Below the pieces are notes generated by a model, which saw only the letters and a list, made by a program, of their open reading frames with translations, made no database searches and had not been told where the DNA came from. This document shows positions 53,774 to 64,000 of a DNA stretch of 64,000 nucleotides, piece by piece. The first letter of the stretch is position 1; every line of letters starts with the position of its first letter. Source of the DNA: Turicibacter faecis. Lineage in GTDB: Bacteria > Bacillota_I > Bacilli_A > MOL361 > Turicibacteraceae. Both the position numbers and the translations under genes were made by a program. The DNA lies in contig NZ_AP028127.1 of assembly GCF_037076425.1 (NCBI RefSeq), positions 2,250,001 through 2,314,000 on the forward strand. Direction: 5' to 3'.

Positions 53774-53801
53774 AAAAAAGCCAGAATTTCCTGGCTTTTT
53801 T
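53774..53801 (+). terminator. MATE gene terminator
   Basis: AAAAAAGCCAG pairs with CTGGCTTTTTT around a 6-base loop. Confidence 0.9.
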
Positions 53802-53806
53802 CATTA

Positions 53807-54382
53807 TTATAAAAACAAATTTCTTTTTGGGGCCTCAACAAGTAAATTTAATTCTTTTAAAAAAATTTTTTTCCTCTTCCTTAGAACGAAATGCCGTTTT
53901 AGCTATCACATCTATGAATTTTTTATAATTCTTTTCGTATAAATAATACTTCTCTTTATACTCAATCACGTGATACACCTTTAACTCAGCACTGCGTCAT
54001 CATACTCTATTTTGATTTTTCCTTTTTTAACAGTCGTCGTTTTAGCCCCCATAAAATACATATTCTTTTTAATAATTCTATTAAATACCGCTCTTTTGGT
54101 GCACCACTTCATCATAGGTTTACGAAATCCAACAGCGACTCCCCATAAAGACAGCTCTGTGACACAAAGAATTAATTGTTCCACCAATTCCTCAACTAAA
54201 TAACTTGGCGTCGGATAAAAATAAAGATAGTAAATAGTATAGATGAACACATATAAAAGAAAAAGCGGAAATAAAGTTCCAACGATAATATAACAAAAAA
54301 TAAATCGGAGAGGTGACCTACAACTAATTAATAGAATCCCCTCCACCAATTCTTCTAATGATGTTTTATATCTTAACTCCAT
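53807..54382 (-). pseudogene. Frameshifted YcxB-like membrane protein (copy A)
   Basis: The first 133 codons, from ATG 54382 (MELRYKTSLEELVEG), match the four paralogues in this region and end early at 53981. Reading on in another frame recovers the family's C-terminal half (ELKVYHVIEYKEKYYLYE...). A second shift at an A7T7 tract near 53863 is needed to reach the family ending APKRNLFL and a stop at 53807. Two frameshifts make it a pseudogene unless the sequence has errors. The start shares the ribosome-site context of the other copies. Confidence 0.8.
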
Positions 54383-54508
54383 TTTATCATCCCCTTTTCA
54401 ACATCCTCTGTCGTTTATCAGTAGTATTAGGCGGTGGTTACTCGCCTATCCCCCTCCTAAATACAAATAAACCCCATCCGAAATCATGAATTAGATCCGC
54501 CTTCTTTT

Positions 54509-55066
54509 CTACTTCCACCACCAAATACCCCAATAAAGGAATTTTCTTTTGAACCTCTCAGTTGGTAAATTAATAATAGATAAAAAATCTTCCTTTTCTT
54601 CCTTAGAACAAAATAATTCACATGGAATAATTGCTACTATTAAATACTTTTCTCCATAAAGATACAGCATATCATCTTTTTCTAAAATATACTTTAATTC
54701 TACAGTCATTTCTCTATTTTCATAAATAATTTTTATCTTATTATCTAAAGGTATGATTTTCTTTTCTTCCACAAGATGTGGATGCTTTTCTAATAGTTTT
54801 TTAAACTAGATTCTGTATCGTAATCTTAGCATAGGACCTATCATAAAAAATGCAACAGTTGTAGTTATAAAAAGACGAACAAAAATCATCCATGTATTGA
54901 GAGTTACACCATAATAGAGAAGATAAATTAGGTATATCAACGTACATATTGGTAAAACAATTCTCAAAAAAATAATTCCATAATAATATTGCCATTTAAT
55001 TCGACACGTTCTTAACACTCCTGCGTCAATATAATCCCCCAATGAAGACTTATATTTTAACTCCAT
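54509..55066 (-). pseudogene. YcxB-like membrane protein with in-frame stop (copy B)
   Basis: The frame from ATG 55066 (MELKYKSSLGDYID) to the stop at 54509 is continuous for 186 codons, except for a single TAG at 54808-54806 after the second hydrophobic segment. Beyond it the same frame reads FKKLLEKHPHLVEEKKI and ends KFLYWGIWWWK, homologous to the intact copies. A single base change therefore seems to have inactivated it; alternatively the stop is suppressed or a sequencing error. Confidence 0.8.
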
Positions 55067-55146
55067 TTTATCATCCTCTTTTTCTATATCATCAGATTTT
55101 TCTATATCATCAGAGAATTTAATTCCCCTAATTTGACAATCAATTT

Positions 55147-55722
55147 TTAATATAATCCTCGATACAATATGTTTTTACTCGGATACTCTACAGACATATT
55201 TAAAATCTCTAAAAATAACTTTTGCTCACTTGCCGATTTAAAGAGATAATGGGGAATCACATCAATTACCTGATAATCCTCAGTGAATAAGTAATACTTT
55301 TTATTATTTTCCACTAGGTGACTAACAGCTATATCTCTTGCATAATCTTTGTATTTTACGGTAATACGTCGATCGTAGATAACCATCGTTTTAGGCTCAA
55401 ACAGATAAGGTCGTGTTTTCAACTCACGCTTTAACCCTCTTTTTATGTGAAATATTATATTTCTTTTTTGTAGCAGAAAGACCATAACTATAAAAATTAT
55501 ACTTCCCCCAGTAACAATAAGCCATCCTTTTAAGAAGTAATCAAAGTAATCTAAGTGTTTTCTATACTTATATAACTGCATCAATTGACCATATACGGTA
55601 TTAAAAGGAACAAATAGACGAATAAATGCAACATGCATAAAAAAGAAAAGTTTACTTTTTAAATTACTTAATAAATTTGCCTCAACCCAACCATCCAATG
55701 TCAATTGACAGTTTAATCCCAT
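55147..55722 (-). CDS. YcxB-like membrane protein (copy C)
   Basis: An intact 191-residue member of the local family. An N-terminal MGLNCQLTLDGWVEANLL is followed by two hydrophobic segments (about 28-50 and 65-90). The C-terminal soluble YcxB-like domain has VIDVIPHYLFKSASEQKLFLEIL. The ATG follows the shared AAAGGGGATGATAAA context. Function of this family is unknown; it is the most diverged copy at the N-terminus. Confidence 0.82.
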   Translation of the reverse strand: MGLNCQLTLDGWVEANLLSNLKSKLFFFMHVAFIRLFVPFNTVYGQLMQLYKYRKHLDYFDYFLKGWLIVTGGSIIFIVMVFLLQKRNIIFHIKRGLKRELKTRPYLFEPKTMVIYDRRITVKYKDYARDIAVSHLVENNKKYYLFTEDYQVIDVIPHYLFKSASEQKLFLEILNMSVEYPSKNILYRGLY

Positions 55723-55783
55723 TTTATCATCCCCTTTTCGACATCATCATAGAAATTAATCTTCCTAATTTGATAATCAATTT

Positions 55784-56335
55784 TCAATATAATCGCCAAT
55801 AAAGGATATTTCTTTTTACCGCTTTAATAGGTGTATTAAGGGTTTTTAAAAATAGTTCCTTTTCAACACAATTTTTGAAAATATTTTCAGGTATAATATC
55901 AATTACTCGATTATCAGAGTATAAATAAAACTTCTGATTAAAGTTCAAGATGTACTTAACATCAGTATCTATTTTATTTTCAGATGAATAATGAAGATGA
56001 ACTTTCTGGTTTTCAACCACCATACATTTCTCTTCAATCAAATATGGACTTTTTAATAAGACTTTCGAAAAATTTTTCTCTATTAATTGGACCATGCGCC
56101 GTTTTTGTAAAAAGGCTATTCCAATTAATAGAATAACAGTCGTCGCTCCTAAAAAAATAAAACTATCTAAAAAGCAATTCTGCATGAATAAATAAACTGT
56201 ATAAGCTAGAATAAACATAGGCAACAGAACACGTAATACAACAATACTAAAAAAGAAAATGATTGGTCTATCCCATACAAGCAATAGGCTTGCCTGAATA
56301 TAATCTTCTACTGATGTTTTATACCTTAACTCCAT
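55784..56335 (-). CDS. YcxB-like membrane protein (copy D)
   Basis: An intact 183-residue paralogue: MELRYKTSVEDYIQASLL, two hydrophobic segments, a basic stretch (QKRRM), then the soluble domain with KFYLYSDNRVIDIIPENIFK and the ending NILYWRLY. It is the first gene of a minus-strand series with copies C, B and A (gaps of 60-130 bases). Its upstream region is almost the same as that of copy E. It diverges from the large wall hydrolase. Confidence 0.83.
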   Translation of the reverse strand: MELRYKTSVEDYIQASLLLVWDRPIIFFFSIVVLRVLLPMFILAYTVYLFMQNCFLDSFIFLGATTVILLIGIAFLQKRRMVQLIEKNFSKVLLKSPYLIEEKCMVVENQKVHLHYSSENKIDTDVKYILNFNQKFYLYSDNRVIDIIPENIFKNCVEKELFLKTLNTPIKAVKRNILYWRLY

Positions 56336-56337
56336 TT

Positions 56338-56430
56338 TATCATCCCCTTTTCGACATCCTCTGTCGTTTGTTAGTAGTATAGCACGATACCTTACTTAAA
56401 AGCTATATGTCCGTCAATACCAATTATTAG
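56338..56430 (-). promoter_or_regulatory. Promoter/leader of copy D, duplicated before copy E
   Basis: About 93 bases upstream of copy D are closely matched upstream of copy E (61294-61386). They contain an extended -10, TGCTATACT (minus strand, 56384-56376), and the shared ribosome site. The -35 is poor. The conservation of non-coding sequence supports a functional promoter. Confidence 0.6.
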
Positions 56431-56564
56431 ACTCTCTTTGGCTTTCCTCTTAAATCTCTAACAAAAAAATCAATAACCCTTTATTTCGTTTATTAACTTT
56501 TTTCAAAAATCTCATGTCACTTTGATGGCAGTTTGCAAGAGCCTTTTTGATTTAAAATGAAATT

Positions 56565-56592
56565 TGTAAGGAGATAAACATAACTCCTTGCA
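56565..56592 (+). other. Leader hairpin before the wall hydrolase
   Basis: TGTAAGGAG pairs with CTCCTTGCA (one wobble) around a 10-base loop, about 29 bases before the start codon and separate from the ribosome site TTGGAGG. It may stabilise or regulate the mRNA. Confidence 0.4.
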
Positions 56593-56620
56593 TACAACTT
56601 TACATCTTGGAGGTTTTTAT

Positions 56621-59428
56621 ATGGCAACACAAAAACTGATTCTCCCCATTAATAAAACACGGGTAACTGCCGGATTTAAAAACACAAATTATTTAAATCA
56701 ATTTGGTTTTCGGCATTACGGAATGGATTTAACCGAGACGGGATCTAATCGAACCATTTGGGGTAGTGGAAACGGACAAGTTTTAGAAACCGGATTTGAT
56801 AACGTTCTAGGAAATGTAGTTATTATTCGCTACGATCAATGTCAATTAAAAAATGGAACTATTAAAAACCTGATTCAACGTCTCTTCCACCTAGATCGTG
56901 TGGACGTCACGAAGGGACAATCTATTACAAAAGATACACGTATTGGGCTTTATGGATCTACTGGACAATATGCAACAGGACCACATCTCCATGTCGAATT
57001 TGATACAGATGTTAACTATCCAACTTATAGCCCTACTCTAGGTAAAAACTCTAACATCATCAAAGCCGGGACCGACTCTGTTTTAAATCCAGCCGATGTC
57101 ATGTTTGTTAAAAAATCGGCACCAGATAATCAATCAGTTGTTGGGGCATCAAATTCAGATTGTTGGACAAATTCTGATTTAGCCTTTCCAACATATTCCG
57201 GAACTACTTCCTCAGGTAACGGTTCTTCTTACTTTCCAATTCCTAACTACTCAGGTGGCTCATTTGTCGATGCCTTAAATTCAATCGGTGTTGACTCTGG
57301 TTTCGATTCTCGTGAACAAATTGCCAATGCGAATGGGATTTCTAATTACACGGGTTCAGCCGACCAAAACGATACTTTACTTTCTCTATTAATGAAAGGT
57401 CAGTTACGTCAACCCGGTTCTTCCGGTGGTTCAGCAGGCTCTTCTTACTTCCCAATTCCTAACTACTCAGGTGGCTCATTTGTCGATGCCTTAAATTCAA
57501 TCGGTGTTAATTCTAGTTTCGATTCTCGTGAACAAATTGCCAATGCGAATGGGATTTCTAATTACACGGGTTCAGCCGACCAAAATGACACCTTACTTTC
57601 TCTATTAATGAAAGGTCAGTTACGTCAACCTGGTTCTTCCGGTGGTTCAGCAGGCTCTTCTTACTTCCCAATTCCTAACTACTCAGGTGGCTCATTTGTC
57701 GATGCCTTAAATTCAATCGGTGTTAATTCTAGTTTCGATTCTCGTGAACAAATTGCCAATGCGAATGGGATTTCTAATTACACGGGTTCAGCCGACCAAA
57801 ATGACACCTTACTTTCTCTATTAATGAAAGGTCAGTTACGTCAACCCGGTTCTTCCGGTGGTTCAGCAGGCTCTTCTTACTTCCCAATTCCTAATTACTC
57901 AGGTGGCTCATTTGTCGATGCCTTAAATTCAATCGGTGTTAATTCTAGTTTCGATTCTCGTGAACAAATTGCCAATGCGAATGGGATTTCTAATTACACG
58001 GGTTCAGCCGACCAAAATGACACCTTACTTTCCCTATTAATGAAAGGTCAGTTACGTCAACCCGGTTCTTCCGGTAGTTCCTCTGGTGGCAGCGCGGGTG
58101 GTAACGGAGCAAGCGATATTGGTCCTGTCAATGGTTTAAGCGTGCGAAAAAATTTAGTTTCAAGTCAAAAATACTCCATTAAAGCCCCTTATCCGATGGA
58201 CCCCGTCTACATTACTGTCCACAACACCTATAATGACGCCTCTGCAGAAAATGAAATTGCCTATATGATTCGAAACGATAACGAAGTCTCTTTTCACTTT
58301 GCGGTGGATGATAAAGAAGCCGTGCAAGGGTTACCATTAAACAGAAATGGTTGGCATGCAGGTGATGGTAGCGAAGGAACCGGAAACAGAAAGTCCATCG
58401 CTATTGAAATCTGCTACTCAGAATCCGGTGGCGATCGCTTCCTTAAAGCTGAAAAAAATGCAGCTAAATTAATTGCTGCATTAATGAGATACTTCAATAT
58501 TCCATTGTCTAACGTTCGTACACACCAAAGTTGGAGCGGTAAATATTGTCCTCATCGCACACTAGATTTGGGATGGAATCGTTTTGTAAAAATAATTGAA
58601 AAAGAATTAACAGTTAATGAAGATCATAACGAATTAGTTTTTAAGCAAATGACAGATCTTTGTAAGTTAGCACAACAGTACATTGCTACGCATTATCCTA
58701 ATATTATGGATACAAATCCACTTAAGTTAGCTTTACAGTATTATAGACATTCACAGTATAACGGAACAGCATGGACCGCAGTAGCGGGCCCTTTAGATCA
58801 AGGGTATGTAAATTATGTCACTACGAAGTACCAAGGGGATATTATTAGTTATATTATAGACCCAGTATCAAATGAAGTAATTAATTTACCACATCTCTGT
58901 GTAACTTTAGAAACACCTGTCTTCTTATGGGGATCAGAGTTTTTTCAAATTGCCGATTACGCTGGGTGGGCTGGTGATTTAGTTTCCTTAATTAAAAATA
59001 TTAAAAATAAAATTGGTGAAAGTAGTGATGTTAATCAAATAGCAAAAGCTACTCACTCTTTAATTGGAAATGAAGATACCTATTTTAGCATGGAAGACTA
59101 TTATTCCGATATAGACGCAGTGAATATGTATAAGCTTTATCAATCAAAAAATTATAACAATCTAGGAGAATTATTTAGAGATTATTATAAAAATTACGTT
59201 CAATTACGAACTACAAAATTTATGAAAAATAGGTTTAACGGAGCAACAAGTCTAGAAGGCATTGAGAGACAAGTATGTGAGGTGATGAGAAATTACTTAT
59301 GGGTGGAGGCAATAGCTCATATTGTCGGAATTCCTTCTATTTCAGAATCAGAACTAAAAGGATTAGCTAAAGGATTTGCTCTAAAAGTCATCGAGTTATA
59401 TTTAATCGAAAATAAAAAAACCTCTTAA
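56621..59428 (+). CDS. Large leaderless cell-wall hydrolase: M23 peptidase, repeats, amidase
   Basis: ATG 56621 with TTGGAGG gives 935 residues. Residues 1-170 are an M23 (LytM) endopeptidase with zinc motifs HYGMD (His32, Asp36) and HLH (122-124). Residues 202-484 are four 72-residue repeats (SYFPIPNYSGGSFVDALNSIG...), like wall-binding repeats I recall from phage endolysins. About 505-660 is an N-acetylmuramoyl-L-alanine amidase (Amidase_2) with zinc ligands in TVHNT (about His534) and SGKYCPH. Residues 660-935 are unrecognised, helical and more AT-rich in DNA. There is no signal peptide, so export would need lysis, a holin or another route. The domain order with two lytic domains is unusual. 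Confidence 0.87.
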   Translation: MATQKLILPINKTRVTAGFKNTNYLNQFGFRHYGMDLTETGSNRTIWGSGNGQVLETGFDNVLGNVVIIRYDQCQLKNGTIKNLIQRLFHLDRVDVTKGQSITKDTRIGLYGSTGQYATGPHLHVEFDTDVNYPTYSPTLGKNSNIIKAGTDSVLNPADVMFVKKSAPDNQSVVGASNSDCWTNSDLAFPTYSGTTSSGNGSSYFPIPNYSGGSFVDALNSIGVDSGFDSREQIANANGISNYTGSADQNDTLLSLLMKGQLRQPGSSGGSAGSSYFPIPNYSGGSFVDALNSIGVNSSFDSREQIANANGISNYTGSADQNDTLLSLLMKGQLRQPGSSGGSAGSSYFPIPNYSGGSFVDALNSIGVNSSFDSREQIANANGISNYTGSADQNDTLLSLLMKGQLRQPGSSGGSAGSSYFPIPNYSGGSFVDALNSIGVNSSFDSREQIANANGISNYTGSADQNDTLLSLLMKGQLRQPGSSGSSSGGSAGGNGASDIGPVNGLSVRKNLVSSQKYSIKAPYPMDPVYITVHNTYNDASAENEIAYMIRNDNEVSFHFAVDDKEAVQGLPLNRNGWHAGDGSEGTGNRKSIAIEICYSESGGDRFLKAEKNAAKLIAALMRYFNIPLSNVRTHQSWSGKYCPHRTLDLGWNRFVKIIEKELTVNEDHNELVFKQMTDLCKLAQQYIATHYPNIMDTNPLKLALQYYRHSQYNGTAWTAVAGPLDQGYVNYVTTKYQGDIISYIIDPVSNEVINLPHLCVTLETPVFLWGSEFFQIADYAGWAGDLVSLIKNIKNKIGESSDVNQIAKATHSLIGNEDTYFSMEDYYSDIDAVNMYKLYQSKNYNNLGELFRDYYKNYVQLRTTKFMKNRFNGATSLEGIERQVCEVMRNYLWVEAIAHIVGIPSISESELKGLAKGFALKVIELYLIENKKTS
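57224..58075 (+). repeat. Four tandem 216-base repeats
   Basis: Units begin at 57224, 57440, 57656 and 57872, each 216 bases (72 codons), the last slightly short. Units 2-4 are almost identical at DNA level; unit 1 differs at a few sites (for example GACTCTGGT against AATTCTAGT). This indicates recent expansion, and copy number may vary between strains. Confidence 0.95.
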
Positions 59429-59641
59429 TCAATCACTTTAAAATGTAATCTATTTATTACTTACAAGTTAAACGATGCGATGCGGTAGTAGAGGCTTTCA
59501 TGTTGAAGATTACCATAGATGGATTTTACTTATTTAATTGGTAAGATGTACTTAATGAAATTAATCTTTTAATGACCGCTCAACTTCAGCAGATTATATA
59601 ACCAATGATTAACTGAGTCCAAAAATTAAACCTCCTATTTC

Positions 59642-60064
59642 CTAATAGAGTGACTGTAATTCAAAATTATTTGGAGCAGTGAAATAGATTGTTTGAGCAT
59701 AATCTCCATATAGAGTAATAGTGGCATTAGTATCATCATTCCATTCAATCAAAACATTCGAAGCGTCAAAGTTCTCATGGCAAACTATGTTTACCTCTGT
59801 TCTTATGCCATCATCCACTTCTATATAAAACATATATTTTCCATGAAAACCGATACCTCTTTGGATAATTGAAAGAGTATAATTTTCATTAGGAGAAGAG
59901 CTTTCAAAAATAACTTTTTCGTTTGTTACTTCTCTAAAGGTAGATTGGAAAAAGAGGAAAATTGCAATAAAAAAACAAATAATTGGAAGAAGGCATCCAA
60001 TTAAAGCAAGAAGGCATCCACACCCATTAGCCCTTAATCTGTGTTTCTCTTCTAATTCATTCAT
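59642..60064 (-). CDS. Membrane-anchored protein, DUF5412-like
   Basis: The 140-residue protein starts at ATG 60064 after AAGGAGAG. A cysteine-rich hydrophobic segment (residues 14-42) anchors it, and the rest is outside or beta-rich: SPNENYTLSIIQRG, IEVDDG, VLIEWNDDTNATITLYG. The pattern resembles DUF5412 proteins from memory. Function is unknown. It lies between the wall hydrolase and the truncated gene. Confidence 0.65.
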   Translation of the reverse strand: MNELEEKHRLRANGCGCLLALIGCLLPIICFFIAIFLFFQSTFREVTNEKVIFESSSPNENYTLSIIQRGIGFHGKYMFYIEVDDGIRTEVNIVCHENFDASNVLIEWNDDTNATITLYGDYAQTIYFTAPNNFELQSLY

Positions 60065-60110
60065 AAATAAATCTCTCCTTATTATTTTATATTCTATTCA
60101 CTTTCCTTTA

Positions 60111-60629
60111 GTTACCGTCGATGGAGAGATTAGTTTAACCCCATCCTTAGCAGGCCCATTTAAAACACTTAACTTAGATATTAGTCCTGAGAAAAATGTT
60201 ATCAACTTATTAGGCGCACTCGATCGTGGCCAAATTGCATATCGATTCGATAAAAACAACTTATTAATGACACTTCAAAGCATTTCATTTGAATCTGACT
60301 TTGACAAAAATATAAAAACGCGTTATGAATTGGAAGGCGATAAGGTTATCATTACTTTAGAATCCTCAACTGTATATCAAGACAAAAATTTTCCAACAAA
60401 ACTCTACCAAAGAATTATTATTACCATTCACGTTAATACCCCTGGGTCTTATACGCTAAAAGTTCCATTAAAAGATTCAACGCCTGCAAACCAATTAAAA
60501 CCAAATACATATATCGATTATAATACCACCTTCGGAATCACCGGAATCGCGATTCTGTTTATATATGGTTTATACACTTTAATTAAAAACAAACCTCAAT
60601 TTGATATTCTCCGTATGTGTTTCCAGTAA
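60111..60629 (+). pseudogene. 5'-truncated membrane protein gene fragment
   Basis: The frame is open from before 60111 to the stop at 60629 and reads as good protein (VTVDGEISLTPSLAGPF..., DRGQIAYRF), but no start codon with a ribosome site exists before an internal ATG at 60267. It ends with a hydrophobic helix (GITGIAILFIYGLYTLI) and a basic tail, like a type I surface or membrane protein. The 5' end stops at the promoter of the divergent gene at 60064. It looks like the 3' part of a longer gene cut by a rearrangement. The parent family is not recognised. Confidence 0.55.
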
Positions 60630-60681
60630 CCTGAGACTAAAAGACATTTCTAAAAATAGACTTAGGAAATAGTTATTATAA

Positions 60682-60709
60682 AAGGAGCCGTTATAAAGGC
60701 TTCTTTTTT
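60682..60709 (+). terminator. Terminator after the gene fragment
   Basis: AAGGAGCC pairs with GGCTTCTT (one wobble) around an 8-base loop, followed by Ts. Confidence 0.75.
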
Positions 60710-60718
60710 CGATTTAAA

Positions 60719-61291
60719 CTATAAAAATAATCTTCGTATTGGACGCTCAACAGGCAGACCAACCTCCTTTAAAAATAATTGTTCCTGTTCCTCCGATTTA
60801 AAAATAGACTTAGGAATTACATCTAATTCTGTATACTTCCCTGTATATAAATAATACCTATTATCATATTCAATAATATGATTTATATCAATATTTAATT
60901 TCCGTTCTCCATAATCAAAAATTGCATGATGTCCATTCACCCTCAATATTTTCTCCTGTAATAAAAGTGGATACATTCGAAATGTAATTTTAGATAAAAA
61001 AGTCTTTTGAATCCATCTAGCAGATTGCTTTCGTGTAAGAGTTATTACAAACCATAGCGTTATCACTCCCATACAATTAAATAATTGAAAAAGGAGGCCT
61101 TCTAAATCATATCCAGACTTATAATATATATGAATATAATAAATCGTATGAAATAATCCATAGAAAAGAAAGATCGGAATTGCAACTCCCATAAAGATAA
61201 TCGCCCCATAAAACCGTAAAGATGTCCTACTCATTACTAGTAGGTAAACATTTACCCACTCTTCTAATGATGTTTTATACCTTAACTCCAT
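60719..61291 (-). CDS. YcxB-like membrane protein (copy E)
   Basis: An intact 190-residue paralogue of copies A-D: MELRYKTSLEEWVNVYLL, two hydrophobic segments, and the C-terminal domain with IIEYDNRYYLYTGKYTELDVIPKSIFKSEEQEQLFL. Its N-terminus is closest to copy A and its promoter region to copy D. It stands alone, about 4.4 kb from the others, on the far side of the wall hydrolase. Confidence 0.83.
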   Translation of the reverse strand: MELRYKTSLEEWVNVYLLVMSRTSLRFYGAIIFMGVAIPIFLFYGLFHTIYYIHIYYKSGYDLEGLLFQLFNCMGVITLWFVITLTRKQSARWIQKTFLSKITFRMYPLLLQEKILRVNGHHAIFDYGERKLNIDINHIIEYDNRYYLYTGKYTELDVIPKSIFKSEEQEQLFLKEVGLPVERPIRRLFL

Positions 61292-61293
61292 TT

Positions 61294-61386
61294 TATCATC
61301 CCTTTCTCAATCTCCCTTGTCGCTTATTAGTAGTATAGCACGGCACTTACTTAAAAGCTATATGTCCCTTAATACCAATTATTAGC
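61294..61386 (-). promoter_or_regulatory. Promoter/leader of copy E
   Basis: Closely matches the region before copy D, including TGCTATACT (61340-61332). Confidence 0.6.
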
Positions 61387-61520: not shown

Positions 61521-61928
61521 TTATTTTTCCTCATCATCTTTCTCTTTTAGACTGATTAGAATCTTTTTTATCTTATCGGGCATAACTACTCCACTAAATG
61601 ATATATTTTGCAAAATAGAAATTCCTTCATTACTTAAATAGAAAAATATAATAGCATTTTTCAAGGTGTTATCTAAAAAAAGTACATTATAATCTAGAGT
61701 ATGAGCGATAGCTACAAGTAATAAAATAAATATTTTATTACTAATCATGGAATTCAACAGTTTAAGCGAGACATTGTGATTCATTGCTTCATATAACAAC
61801 TTTGTAAAAAATTCGGTAACGATAAAGAAAACTAATGTAAGCAATAAGTTATTCATTTCACCAAATAAAAATACCATAACTCCACTCGTAATAATGCGAT
61901 TCTTATTGAGTCTAAGAAAACTTCTCAT
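61521..61928 (-). CDS. Phage-type holin
   Basis: The 135-residue protein has three or four hydrophobic segments. The family stretch DNTLKNAIIFFYLSNEGISILQN, followed by a charged C-terminus, is typical of the holin family that includes TcdE, UtxA and phi29-type holins. Such proteins make pores that let murein hydrolases or toxins out. ATG 61928 has AGGTG five bases upstream. It is the last gene in a minus-strand series behind two regulator-like genes. Confidence 0.88.
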   Translation of the reverse strand: MRSFLRLNKNRIITSGVMVFLFGEMNNLLLTLVFFIVTEFFTKLLYEAMNHNVSLKLLNSMISNKIFILLLVAIAHTLDYNVLFLDNTLKNAIIFFYLSNEGISILQNISFSGVVMPDKIKKILISLKEKDDEEK

Positions 61929-61974
61929 ATTTAGCACCTAACCTTTTATTAAAGAATCTCCTCCCTTTTATATA

Positions 61975-62400
61975 TTAAATAAAACAGTCTTTTATTTTTT
62001 TATAAATTACAAATATTTCTTCGTCCGCATTCAGAATCAAAAGATTATACAGCCGTCTAATTCCGTCCCTCTTTAATCGATGGATTTGTCGTTCACTATA
62101 ACTTAATGAAAGACTTAACCTAATACCTGCTCCTGATTTTAGGCTATCCCCCATATAAAATTCCTGCAAAATAGTCTGTATCGTCTCGGGCAATAGATTC
62201 CACGATTTTTCAAACTCCTTTAAATAATAATCAATCTCCTTATCTCTTAAAACTTTATCTTTAGATATTTCTCGCTCCCTATTACTTGAAATTAATTTTA
62301 TTCCTTTTAAATCTTTATATAATCGAAGCATACCTATTACAACTTCTTTCGCCCCCTTATCCATCCTTACTAAGCGAGTAACATCTAGCATAACAATCAT
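61975..62400 (-). CDS. Small sigma/ArpU-like phage regulator
   Basis: The 141-residue protein has a C-terminal helix-turn-helix (LSLSLSYSERQIHRLKRDGIRRLYNLL) after a helical region (LLPETIQTILQEFY), in the manner of ArpU/RinA-type late regulators or small sigma factors. The start could be ATG 62400 or ATG 62391. It is 46 bases upstream of the holin and probably co-transcribed. Confidence 0.6.
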   Translation of the reverse strand: MIVMLDVTRLVRMDKGAKEVVIGMLRLYKDLKGIKLISSNREREISKDKVLRDKEIDYYLKEFEKSWNLLPETIQTILQEFYMGDSLKSGAGIRLSLSLSYSERQIHRLKRDGIRRLYNLLILNADEEIFVIYKKIKDCFI

Positions 62401-62554: not shown

Positions 62555-62908
62555 TTAATTATTTCCAAAAAGGAGTTTATATGTACTAGCAAAATTAATT
62601 GTGGCGTTTCGTTTATAGGTCGCCACTGTTCTTTCTGAAACATTTAGTGCCTCCGCTAGCTTATAATTAGTTAGTCCTTCAACATAAGATAAAATAATGA
62701 TTTTTCGATCCTGTTTTTCTAATGCTGAAAAGCAGTCTTCAATATTAGATTCTAATTGCCTATGCTTTTCGATAATAGCAGTATGATTTTTTTCTAACCT
62801 TCTGTTTCCATCTTTTTTTATAATAGGAACCTTCCTATCTAACTCCTGTTTTTCATCGAAAATTCCCTTCACTAACTCCTTCTCTTCTTTCCACTCCAAA
62901 CGTATCAT
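62555..62908 (-). CDS. Sigma-70 region 4-like DNA-binding protein
   Basis: The 117-residue protein is charged and helical at the N-terminus, followed by a region-4-like helix-turn-helix: DRKIIILSYVEGLTNYKLAEALNVSERTVATYKRNA (about 67-102). It lacks sigma region 2, so it is a phage-type regulator rather than a full sigma factor. AAGGTGAGGAG precedes ATG 62908. It diverges from the wall-acting gene at 63185. Confidence 0.72.
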   Translation of the reverse strand: MIRLEWKEEKELVKGIFDEKQELDRKVPIIKKDGNRRLEKNHTAIIEKHRQLESNIEDCFSALEKQDRKIIILSYVEGLTNYKLAEALNVSERTVATYKRNATINFASTYKLLFGNN

Positions 62909-63184: not shown

Positions 63185-64000
63185 ATGGAAACCAAAAGAG
63201 ATGAAAGAGTAGCAGAAGTTCAACAATGGTTGAACGATACATACGGAAAATATGAACCCTCTGGTCGATTCAATACGATTGAAGTCAATGGTAAAACTGG
63301 ATGGCCAACTATTTATGCCCTACGACGTGCGTTACAAATTGAGTTGGGGATTACACAAACTAGCGATGCTTTTGGACCGACCACCTATAGGCAATGTCCA
63401 GCTATTAACCAAGGAAGTGAAGGTAATCTTGTTTATATTGTTCAGGGAGGTTTATGGTGCAAAGGATACAATCCTGGTGGATTCACAGGTTACTATGGAA
63501 ATGGAACATATGATGCTGTTAAAAAACTAAAAGCAGACATGGGATTTCCCACTGCGTCAGGAAATATGAATCGAGATATCATGCGCGGATTATTAGATAT
63601 GAGTGCATTTACTTTATTACCTGGTGGGAGAGAAGAAATTCGTGAAATTCAACAAAAACTAAATTATGAATACTATGATTTTTATCAAATTTGTCCATGT
63701 AACGGTTTATATGATCGAGACATGAATAAAATGCTAATGTATGCTTTACAAAAAGAAGAAGGAATTTCAGCATCTGATGCAACGGGAGCATGGGGTCCAA
63801 CAACAATTGAGAGATGTCCAACAGTATCATTAGGAGATTCTAATGTTTTTGTTACTTTAGTTAAATATGCTGTGGTTTGTAATGGATATTCAATTAATAC
63901 GTCTTCAAGTGTTTATGACGCTGAATTAGAAGCGACAACGAAAGATTTTGCTAATTCATTATTAATTGAAAAAACGCCAAATAAAATTGGTTATTCAATT
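63185..64000 (+). CDS. Partial peptidoglycan-binding glycoside-hydrolase-like protein
   Basis: ATG 63185 after AAAGGAG opens a frame without stop to the right edge, 272 residues visible. It contains three tandem peptidoglycan-binding-like units: VQQWLNDTYGKYE... with FGPTTYRQCP, VQGGLWCKGYNPGGFTGYYGNGTYDAV, and IQQKLNYEYYDFYQICPCNGLYDRDM with WGPTTIERCP. From memory this layout is the N-terminus of Firmicute proteins that carry a C-terminal DUF1906 glycoside-hydrolase-like domain, which would lie outside the window. There is no signal peptide. Confidence 0.82.
   Translation, partial: METKRDERVAEVQQWLNDTYGKYEPSGRFNTIEVNGKTGWPTIYALRRALQIELGITQTSDAFGPTTYRQCPAINQGSEGNLVYIVQGGLWCKGYNPGGFTGYYGNGTYDAVKKLKADMGFPTASGNMNRDIMRGLLDMSAFTLLPGGREEIREIQQKLNYEYYDFYQICPCNGLYDRDMNKMLMYALQKEEGISASDATGAWGPTTIERCPTVSLGDSNVFVTLVKYAVVCNGYSINTSSSVYDAELEATTKDFANSLLIEKTPNKIGYSI

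Follow-up and report, generated by a model that had tools for sequence, protein, structure and literature searches.

YcxB-like genes in a probable antibacterial toxin island of Turicibacter faecis and their possible role in immunity

We analysed a window of 64,000 nucleotides from Turicibacter faecis (contig NZ_AP028127.1; positions 2250001–2314000 of a 2.43-Mb single-contig genome), which contains a family of YcxB-like membrane protein genes around two large wall hydrolases. These genes very likely lie in an acquired antibacterial toxin island, and both the island and the TelC-like domain of its two hydrolases are well supported. That the YcxB-like genes form an amplified, partly decaying array for immunity or tolerance within this island is a reading with an even chance of being correct. 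An earlier sequence-only reading of the window had proposed local amplification and decay of a five-member family and had linked it, speculatively, to protection against a leaderless hydrolase; it missed the TelC-like toxin domain in that hydrolase (hydrolase A) and the immunity candidate at its 3′ end (59642–60064, minus strand).

The YcxB-like family and its genomic setting

The island spans about 15 kb, roughly from window position 53,800 to genome position 2,318,900. Its left part holds Y5, Y4, Y3 and Y2 on the minus strand, hydrolase A on the plus strand, a gene for a DUF5412-like protein (minus) and a gene fragment (plus), followed by Y1, a holin gene, an ArpU-like gene and a sigma-like gene (all minus); the right part consists of hydrolase B (plus), three copies of a multi-transmembrane (multi-TM) family (minus) and Y6 (minus). 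In three congeners, an orthologous MATE gene (73–79% identical) is followed within about 0.1–2.3 kb by the cotJ genes, and the gap contains only a nitroreductase-like gene or transposase-like open reading frames (ORFs; names assigned by eye); the hydrolases, the regulators, the holin and the membrane families are all missing from this site. The YcxB-like (A2) profile retrieved nothing from seven other genomes of the taxonomic family and one weak match (E 5e-6) from 394 other Bacilli genomes. Searches with Y1 returned no relatives in phages, plasmids or IMG/VR, and those with Y2 none in plasmids.

The five homologous minus-strand genes of the sequence-only reading are present as Y1–Y5, and a sixth, decayed copy (Y6) lies beyond the window, giving three intact and three decayed copies with roughly 25–41% identity. 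The intact copies are Y1 (60719–61291; 190 amino acids), which is solitary, Y2 (55784–56335; 183 amino acids), the first of a Y2–Y3–Y4 run with transcription directed away from hydrolase A, and Y3 (55147–55722; 191 amino acids). The two window copies that had been called broken are indeed so: Y4 (54509–55066) has a single in-frame TAG, and the solitary Y5 (53807–54382) has at least two frameshifts by eye and five stops if read straight through. Y6 (genome 2318550–2318825, minus strand, about 4.5 kb past the right window edge) is a remnant, the first ORF of which has 72 amino acids and has lost the membrane hairpin. With Y1 as the sole query against the genome, the other four window copies were recovered at E 2e-21, 9e-20, 5e-15 and 6e-14, so that their homology is not due to chance, and Y6 at E 1e-16. 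Comparable similarity is confined to the island, where the copies surround the two TelC-domain genes. At the Y2/Y3 and Y3/Y4 junctions, the 3′ ends together with the intergenic sequence agree at 101 of 154 positions, as would be expected under tandem duplication.

The 5′ block of the genes, comprising a leader and the first approximately 20 codons, is far more alike among copies than the gene bodies. The leaders of Y1 (61292–61386, minus strand) and Y2 (56336–56430, minus strand) are identical at 81 of 94 positions (86%), compared with 41% at third codon positions past codon 20. This block has either been swapped between copies or been kept by strong constraint. In the genome, the leader occurs only before Y1, Y2 and, as a remnant of 45 nucleotides (54383–54427, minus strand), Y5; given this restriction, a regulon marked by the leader was rejected. 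The ratio of non-synonymous to synonymous divergence (dN/dS), which the sequence-only reading had put forward as a check, gave no sign of positive selection and is uninformative as a test of an arms race, as synonymous sites in Y1–Y3 are near saturation (dS 1.3–2.6).

Y1 comes close to the cut-off of PF14317 (23.3 bits), with 21.9 bits as a protein and 23.3 bits in a DNA search, and the second half of Y4 reaches 18.2 bits; Y2 and Y3 gave no match to the family, and neither did the first half of Y4 or the 5′ part of Y5. The YcxB label is thus only just backed by sequence. Members of PF14317 have two transmembrane (TM) helices and, behind them, a small C-terminal domain, and this layout, seen in other PF14317 members too, recurs in the island proteins. 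It also agrees with the two membrane segments and soluble C-terminal domain described earlier—in the structural model, two long predicted helices precede a beta domain, and a helix forms the C-terminus (predicted local distance difference test score (pLDDT) 70). In the model, the N-terminal strand (beta-1) and the C-terminal domain together make up a PH-like fold, into which the membrane hairpin is inserted. The best PDB matches are the PH-type domains of FACT SSRP1, Pob3 and Rtt106 (Foldseek probability 0.99, E 0.03), and VIA aligned 82 residues to PH-type domains with Z 6.5 and a root-mean-square deviation (rmsd) of 2.9; these values are moderate, with similar ones for some unrelated helical entries. 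The proteins had no match to bPH_2. Lysine and arginine together number 6, 6 and 8 in the 25 residues after the hairpin of Y1, Y2 and Y3, respectively, and 1, 0 and 4 in the loop; given this excess on the PH side, the PH domain is probably cytoplasmic. Three tandem YcxB-like genes also stand behind spoIVA, without a TelC-domain gene, in another Bacilli genome (G009; locus L063, 6180–8603).

TelC-like hydrolases and their membrane-protein partners

Hydrolase A (56621–59428, plus strand) has 935 amino acids when read from the ATG at 56621, which is preceded by GGAGGT and is the likelier start than the TTG at 56588 (an ORF of 946 amino acids). Its domains are, in order, Peptidase_M23 (56714–57007; residues 43–140 of the 946-amino-acid ORF), four DUF3597 repeats coded by four 216-bp repeats with 98% matches (57224–58080), Amidase_2 (58196–58555; residues 537–656 of the same ORF) and a C-terminal TelC-like domain, a predicted lipid II phosphatase (58631–59425). 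The number of the 216-bp direct repeats is likely to differ between strains. Hydrolase B (plus strand; 823 amino acids) starts at 63185, crosses the window end at 64000 and runs to genome position 2315656; it combines PG_binding_1, an Rv2525c-like TIM barrel and a TelC-like domain. Neither sequence begins with a signal-peptide-like stretch, which bears out the earlier description of the hydrolase as leaderless, and neither has a Pfam-A match to the LXG domain. At one further locus (L031), the TelC-domain gene has as its neighbour a separate amidase that shares 51% identity with the one in hydrolase A.

The C-terminal regions of the two hydrolases are homologous (33% identity over 185 columns, E 4e-19), and no Pfam family convincingly covers this region among 15 members scanned. 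A profile built from 15 relatives had a single match among PDB sequences, TelC (5UKH; E 1.3e-4), in three collinear pieces that correspond to the YNG-W-AG, DFAGWxGDL and D-x3-D-x-D stretches. The D, H and GW-GDL columns are invariant in 15–16 sequences, and the D-x3-D-x-D and GWxGD motifs are present. The domain model (pLDDT 88) had 5UKH as its first-ranked Foldseek match (probability 0.84; overall rmsd poor, E 0.05) and as its leading VIA match (Z 10.3, 195 aligned residues, rmsd 4.7; next Z 2.7). Based on these profile and fold matches, hydrolases A and B very probably each carry a TelC-like domain, which presumably cleaves lipid II. A weak match of the TelC-like domain to Cmr6, the sole match in a defence library, was taken as chance.

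Related domains were found in 353 plasmid records (including 278 from Enterococcus and 52 from Lactiplantibacillus), at 20 loci in a GTDB scan and, at E 1e-6, in 4 of 395 Bacilli genomes, this genome included; counted by species, the domain is rare. Weaker matches came from 15 phage records, 14 of them Prevotella Lak phages (E about 1e-6); the Lak giant-phage record MK250019.1 offers an example at 269601–270134. On a Paraclostridium plasmid, the TelC-domain gene stands beside a gene for a UviB-family holin, and at L029 and L035–L037 it is preceded by small regulator ORFs (Pfam matches HTH_16 in L029 and sigma region 4 plus YvrJ in L035).

TelC-domain genes are frequently followed by a gene for a small membrane protein. 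Such an ORF lies within 400 nucleotides of the 3′ end at 12 of 20 TelC-domain loci. The controls, other ORFs in these loci with a length of 150 amino acids or more, have one in 11 of 179 cases. TM segments were called by a plain hydropathy scan. The loci counted were 17 of the 20 from the GTDB scan and three plasmid loci (L017, L019 and L047); L036 and L037 were dropped because their hydrolase is near-identical to that of L035, and L026 because it is the same as L017. As the plasmid loci were added after the pattern had been seen, the Fisher test (p 2e-8) is descriptive only. The eight misses include L028, which has a transposase-like ORF in this position, and L030, in which a 3-TM ORF lies at 673 nucleotides; L036 is a counter-example, its 3′ neighbour being a lipoprotein-like ORF of 149 amino acids instead of a 3-TM protein. 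By eye, the 3′ partners are mostly unrelated to one another. At L045 (9594–12148), from a metagenome-assembled genome of Candidatus Ancillula, three 4-TM paralogues stand in tandem behind the TelC-domain gene, and the last of them seems to be two copies fused into one. A recurrent membrane gene at the 3′ end fits a role in immunity.

Position suggests the DUF5412-like gene (59642–60064, minus strand; one TM segment) as the partner of hydrolase A, with which it converges at the 3′ end, and we consider this gene the most direct immunity candidate for hydrolase A. The positional partner of hydrolase B is the multi-TM family, three convergent copies of which occupy genome 2315801–2318521 on the minus strand (L005, 6801–9521). 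The middle copy is broken, and the two better-preserved copies are 79% identical (dN 0.13, dS 0.24), values that do not indicate positive selection. On L017 (2748–5574) and related Enterococcus plasmids, a leaderless TelC-domain protein (annotated as a glycoside hydrolase domain protein) is paired with a single-TM protein of 131 amino acids; the pair lies near resolvase and IS1216 genes and is also found on a Streptococcus parasanguinis contig. Neither the DUF5412-like protein nor this enterococcal neighbour had a PDB match to TipC. The DUF5412-like protein and the 3-TM neighbours in Bacillus and Cytobacillus loci look alike by eye; as a profile comparison between them was negative, we make no claim of homology.

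A possible immunity array and competing explanations

In the immunity reading, the island would make two large leaderless effectors, hydrolases A and B, and probably release them through the dedicated holin under the control of the small sigma-like regulators. The hydrolase modules of each effector would open the wall and carry the TelC-like domain to the outer face of the membrane, where it would cut lipid II off its lipid carrier. Each effector would have its own 3′ membrane gene or genes (the DUF5412-like gene for A and the three-copy multi-TM family for B), and the YcxB-like proteins, with their membrane hairpin set in a PH-like domain, would add a further layer of protection against earlier or foreign toxin variants, the array turning over by duplication, exchange at the shared 5′ block and loss. 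For every membrane gene of the island, the YcxB-like ones included, immunity is a putative role, and for the YcxB-like array we take immunity or tolerance to be about as probable as its absence.

The best evidence that YcxB-like and DUF5412-like genes belong together comes from one second species, the congener G004. There, a YcxB-like gene is followed after 13 bp by a DUF5412-like gene (63% identity with its counterpart in the window), and two more YcxB-like paralogues lie within 1.7 kb; the three share 36–37% and about 25% identity, and the last of them is truncated. IS66 and other transposases adjoin the cluster. The TelC domain had no match in the G004 genome, nor in the 15–16 kb flanking the cluster on each side, so that the cluster would look like an orphan immunity island. 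The immunity or arms-race proposal of the sequence-only reading is partly supported: it gains from the local amplification and decay, the antibacterial nature of the island, the conserved 5′ block and the linkage in G004, but not from any sign of positive selection.

Several observations weigh against an immunity role of the YcxB-like genes. The YcxB-like proteins encoded in G004 form a subgroup distinct from that of the island, without a significant match to Y1–Y3. The tie of the copies to this class of hydrolase, as suggested earlier, did not hold up outside the island: the YcxB-like (A2) profile had no significant match in the 20 TelC-domain loci (best E 0.03). PF14317 is present in 3 of 15 genomes or records with TelC-domain hydrolases and once lies on the same plasmid, approximately 8 kb away (contigs were compared for that case only), and it occurs in 108 of 395 Bacilli genomes. 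Five of six inspected YcxB clusters (the sixth being that of G004) are without a TelC-domain gene, and at least part of their neighbours look like housekeeping genes, such as that for SpoIVA. The structural model of the YcxB-like proteins is of just moderate confidence, and the distribution of charge (clear in Y1 and Y2, weaker in Y3) probably places the PH domain inside, whereas TelC acts and TipC faces outside. The conservation of the leader block could also reflect regulation rather than exchange.

These points lend some substance to a different explanation, which we regard as a possible but lesser one: only the 3′-adjacent genes (DUF5412-like for A, multi-TM for B) would confer immunity, and the YcxB-like genes would represent a general envelope-stress or membrane-homeostasis family duplicated in or beside the island. 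It agrees with the recurrence at TelC-domain loci of the 3′ membrane gene and not of YcxB, with the commonness of YcxB-domain genes in contexts that mostly have no TelC-domain gene, and with the apparently cytoplasmic PH domain. It accounts less readily for amplified copies that occur only at this place in the genome, for a family not found in the seven other genomes of the taxonomic family and for a linkage of YcxB-like and DUF5412-like genes that returns in G004 without a toxin. The inward PH domain and membrane hairpin, together with the position of the holin gene next to Y1, would also suit a role in release, in which the YcxB-like proteins handle or restrain the holin or help to bring the leaderless effectors out of the cell, much as DdE and DdF assist with enterocin DD14 (PMC13262744). 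We consider this unlikely, as a release factor would not need six divergent, decaying copies, other TelC-domain loci have no YcxB-like (A2) gene and G004 has YcxB-like genes without effectors.

It is more improbable still that the whole stretch is the lysis remnant of a prophage (endolysins, holin and regulators) with unrelated decaying passengers. The holin, the endolysin-like domains, the phage-type regulators and the weakly similar C-terminal domain in the 15 phage records point in this direction; set against them are two different effectors (823 and 935 amino acids) with a toxin-like domain, similar proteins on Enterococcus and Lactiplantibacillus plasmids and bacterial contigs, and the lack of an IMG/VR match with two queries. 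No head, tail or integrase gene was recognised by eye among the island ORFs.

Within the immunity reading, we tentatively propose, with considerable doubt, that the effectors drill through the wall: with hydrolases fused to it, a lipid II phosphatase could cross the Gram-positive wall as part of a diffusible protein released by the holin, and the inward PH family would serve as an exchangeable immunity repertoire. The YcxB-like proteins would then work on the cytoplasmic side, with the lipid carrier or the membrane as conceivable targets, and not by binding the toxin outside, and their genes would travel as orphan arrays with the DUF5412-like gene. If this is true, the fusion would get around the obstacle that the wall presents and allow lipid II, an important target of antibiotics, to be reached without cell contact. 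The island also offers immunity candidates of three unrelated kinds that can be put to the test, and through them the uncharacterised YcxB and DUF5412 families may acquire a first role.

Known systems and further features of the island

The closest comparison is with TelC, a lipid II phosphatase toxin, and TipC of the type VII secretion system of Streptococcus intermedius. According to PMC6193138 and PMC5555719, TelC acts outside and TipC faces outward; the former adds that Gram-positive cells survive purified TelC given externally, apparently because the wall holds it back. According to PMC9484751, a single locus can carry as many as 15 copies of the TelC immunity gene tipC; the copies are conserved at their ends and variable in between, and tandem tipC genes show exchange between copies at a conserved block. 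The island shares the TelC-like domain (by profile and fold) and a multi-copy family of membrane protein genes beside the toxin, with a conserved 5′ block and divergent bodies. By contrast, its effectors lack an LXG domain and have wall hydrolases fused to their TelC-like domain, a holin gene accompanies them and the YcxB-like genes lie on the strand opposite the toxin genes. The YcxB-like proteins, PH-like with two TM segments and a soluble domain predicted inside, also depart from TipC, which has one TM segment and an outward soluble domain. The YcxB-like (A2) profile had no TipC match among PDB sequences; to the missing TipC-like fold in the VIA list for the YcxB-like model we give no weight, as this list may miss folds.

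Hydrolase B has an architecture already described in the lipocone survey (PMC12419801), the available parts of which include proteins with a peptidoglycan-binding domain, an Rv2525c-like TIM barrel and prok-TelC, as well as a 3-TM partner in Actinomycetota. Those parts contain neither the architecture of hydrolase A (M23, DUF3597, Amidase_2 and TelC-like) nor a holin or sigma-like genes, and neither convergent membrane genes of Bacillota nor a YcxB-like array. In the accessible text of the open-licence PMC literature, no description was found of the domain combination of hydrolase A, the link to a holin or the YcxB array, and nothing useful on YcxB in connection with immunity or surfactin. Compared with PF14317, a family of unknown function, the island proteins share two TM helices, a small C-terminal domain, a length of about 170–190 amino acids and a PH-like model; they differ in that most copies fall below the curated cut-off and are locally amplified and decayed.

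Leaderless bacteriocin clusters (DdE/DdF and aureocin A53-like) likewise place a PH-like membrane protein next to a leaderless antibacterial product; PMC13262744 presents DdE and DdF as PH-domain proteins that assist export of enterocin DD14. Their products are small peptides, unlike the island effectors, and the YcxB-like proteins gave no match to bPH_2. A small leaderless peptide bacteriocin was considered as a target of the PH-like genes and rejected, no convincing small ORF being seen by eye in the part of the island inside the window. Loci of the UviA/UviB and TcdR/TcdE type bring together a small sigma-like gene, a holin and large leaderless proteins. The island differs from these in that its effectors look antibacterial (wall enzymes) and its regulators are only weakly similar to known families.

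The holin gene (61521–61937, minus strand), which adjoins Y1, matches TIGR01593 (toxin secretion/phage lysis holin) above the cut-off as well as Phage_holin_4_1. Next to it are genes for a weakly ArpU/sigma-like regulator (61975–62400, minus strand; below the cut-off) and a small sigma-70 region-4 regulator (62555–62908, minus strand). The gene fragment at about 60098–60629 (plus strand) is probably a remnant, a beta-rich open frame with a C-terminal TM helix and an apparently missing 5′ end. At the right edge of the island, directly upstream of cotJA, lies a Group I intron (Rfam RF00028, 68.8 bits; genome 2319255–2319582, plus strand; L005, 10255–10582).

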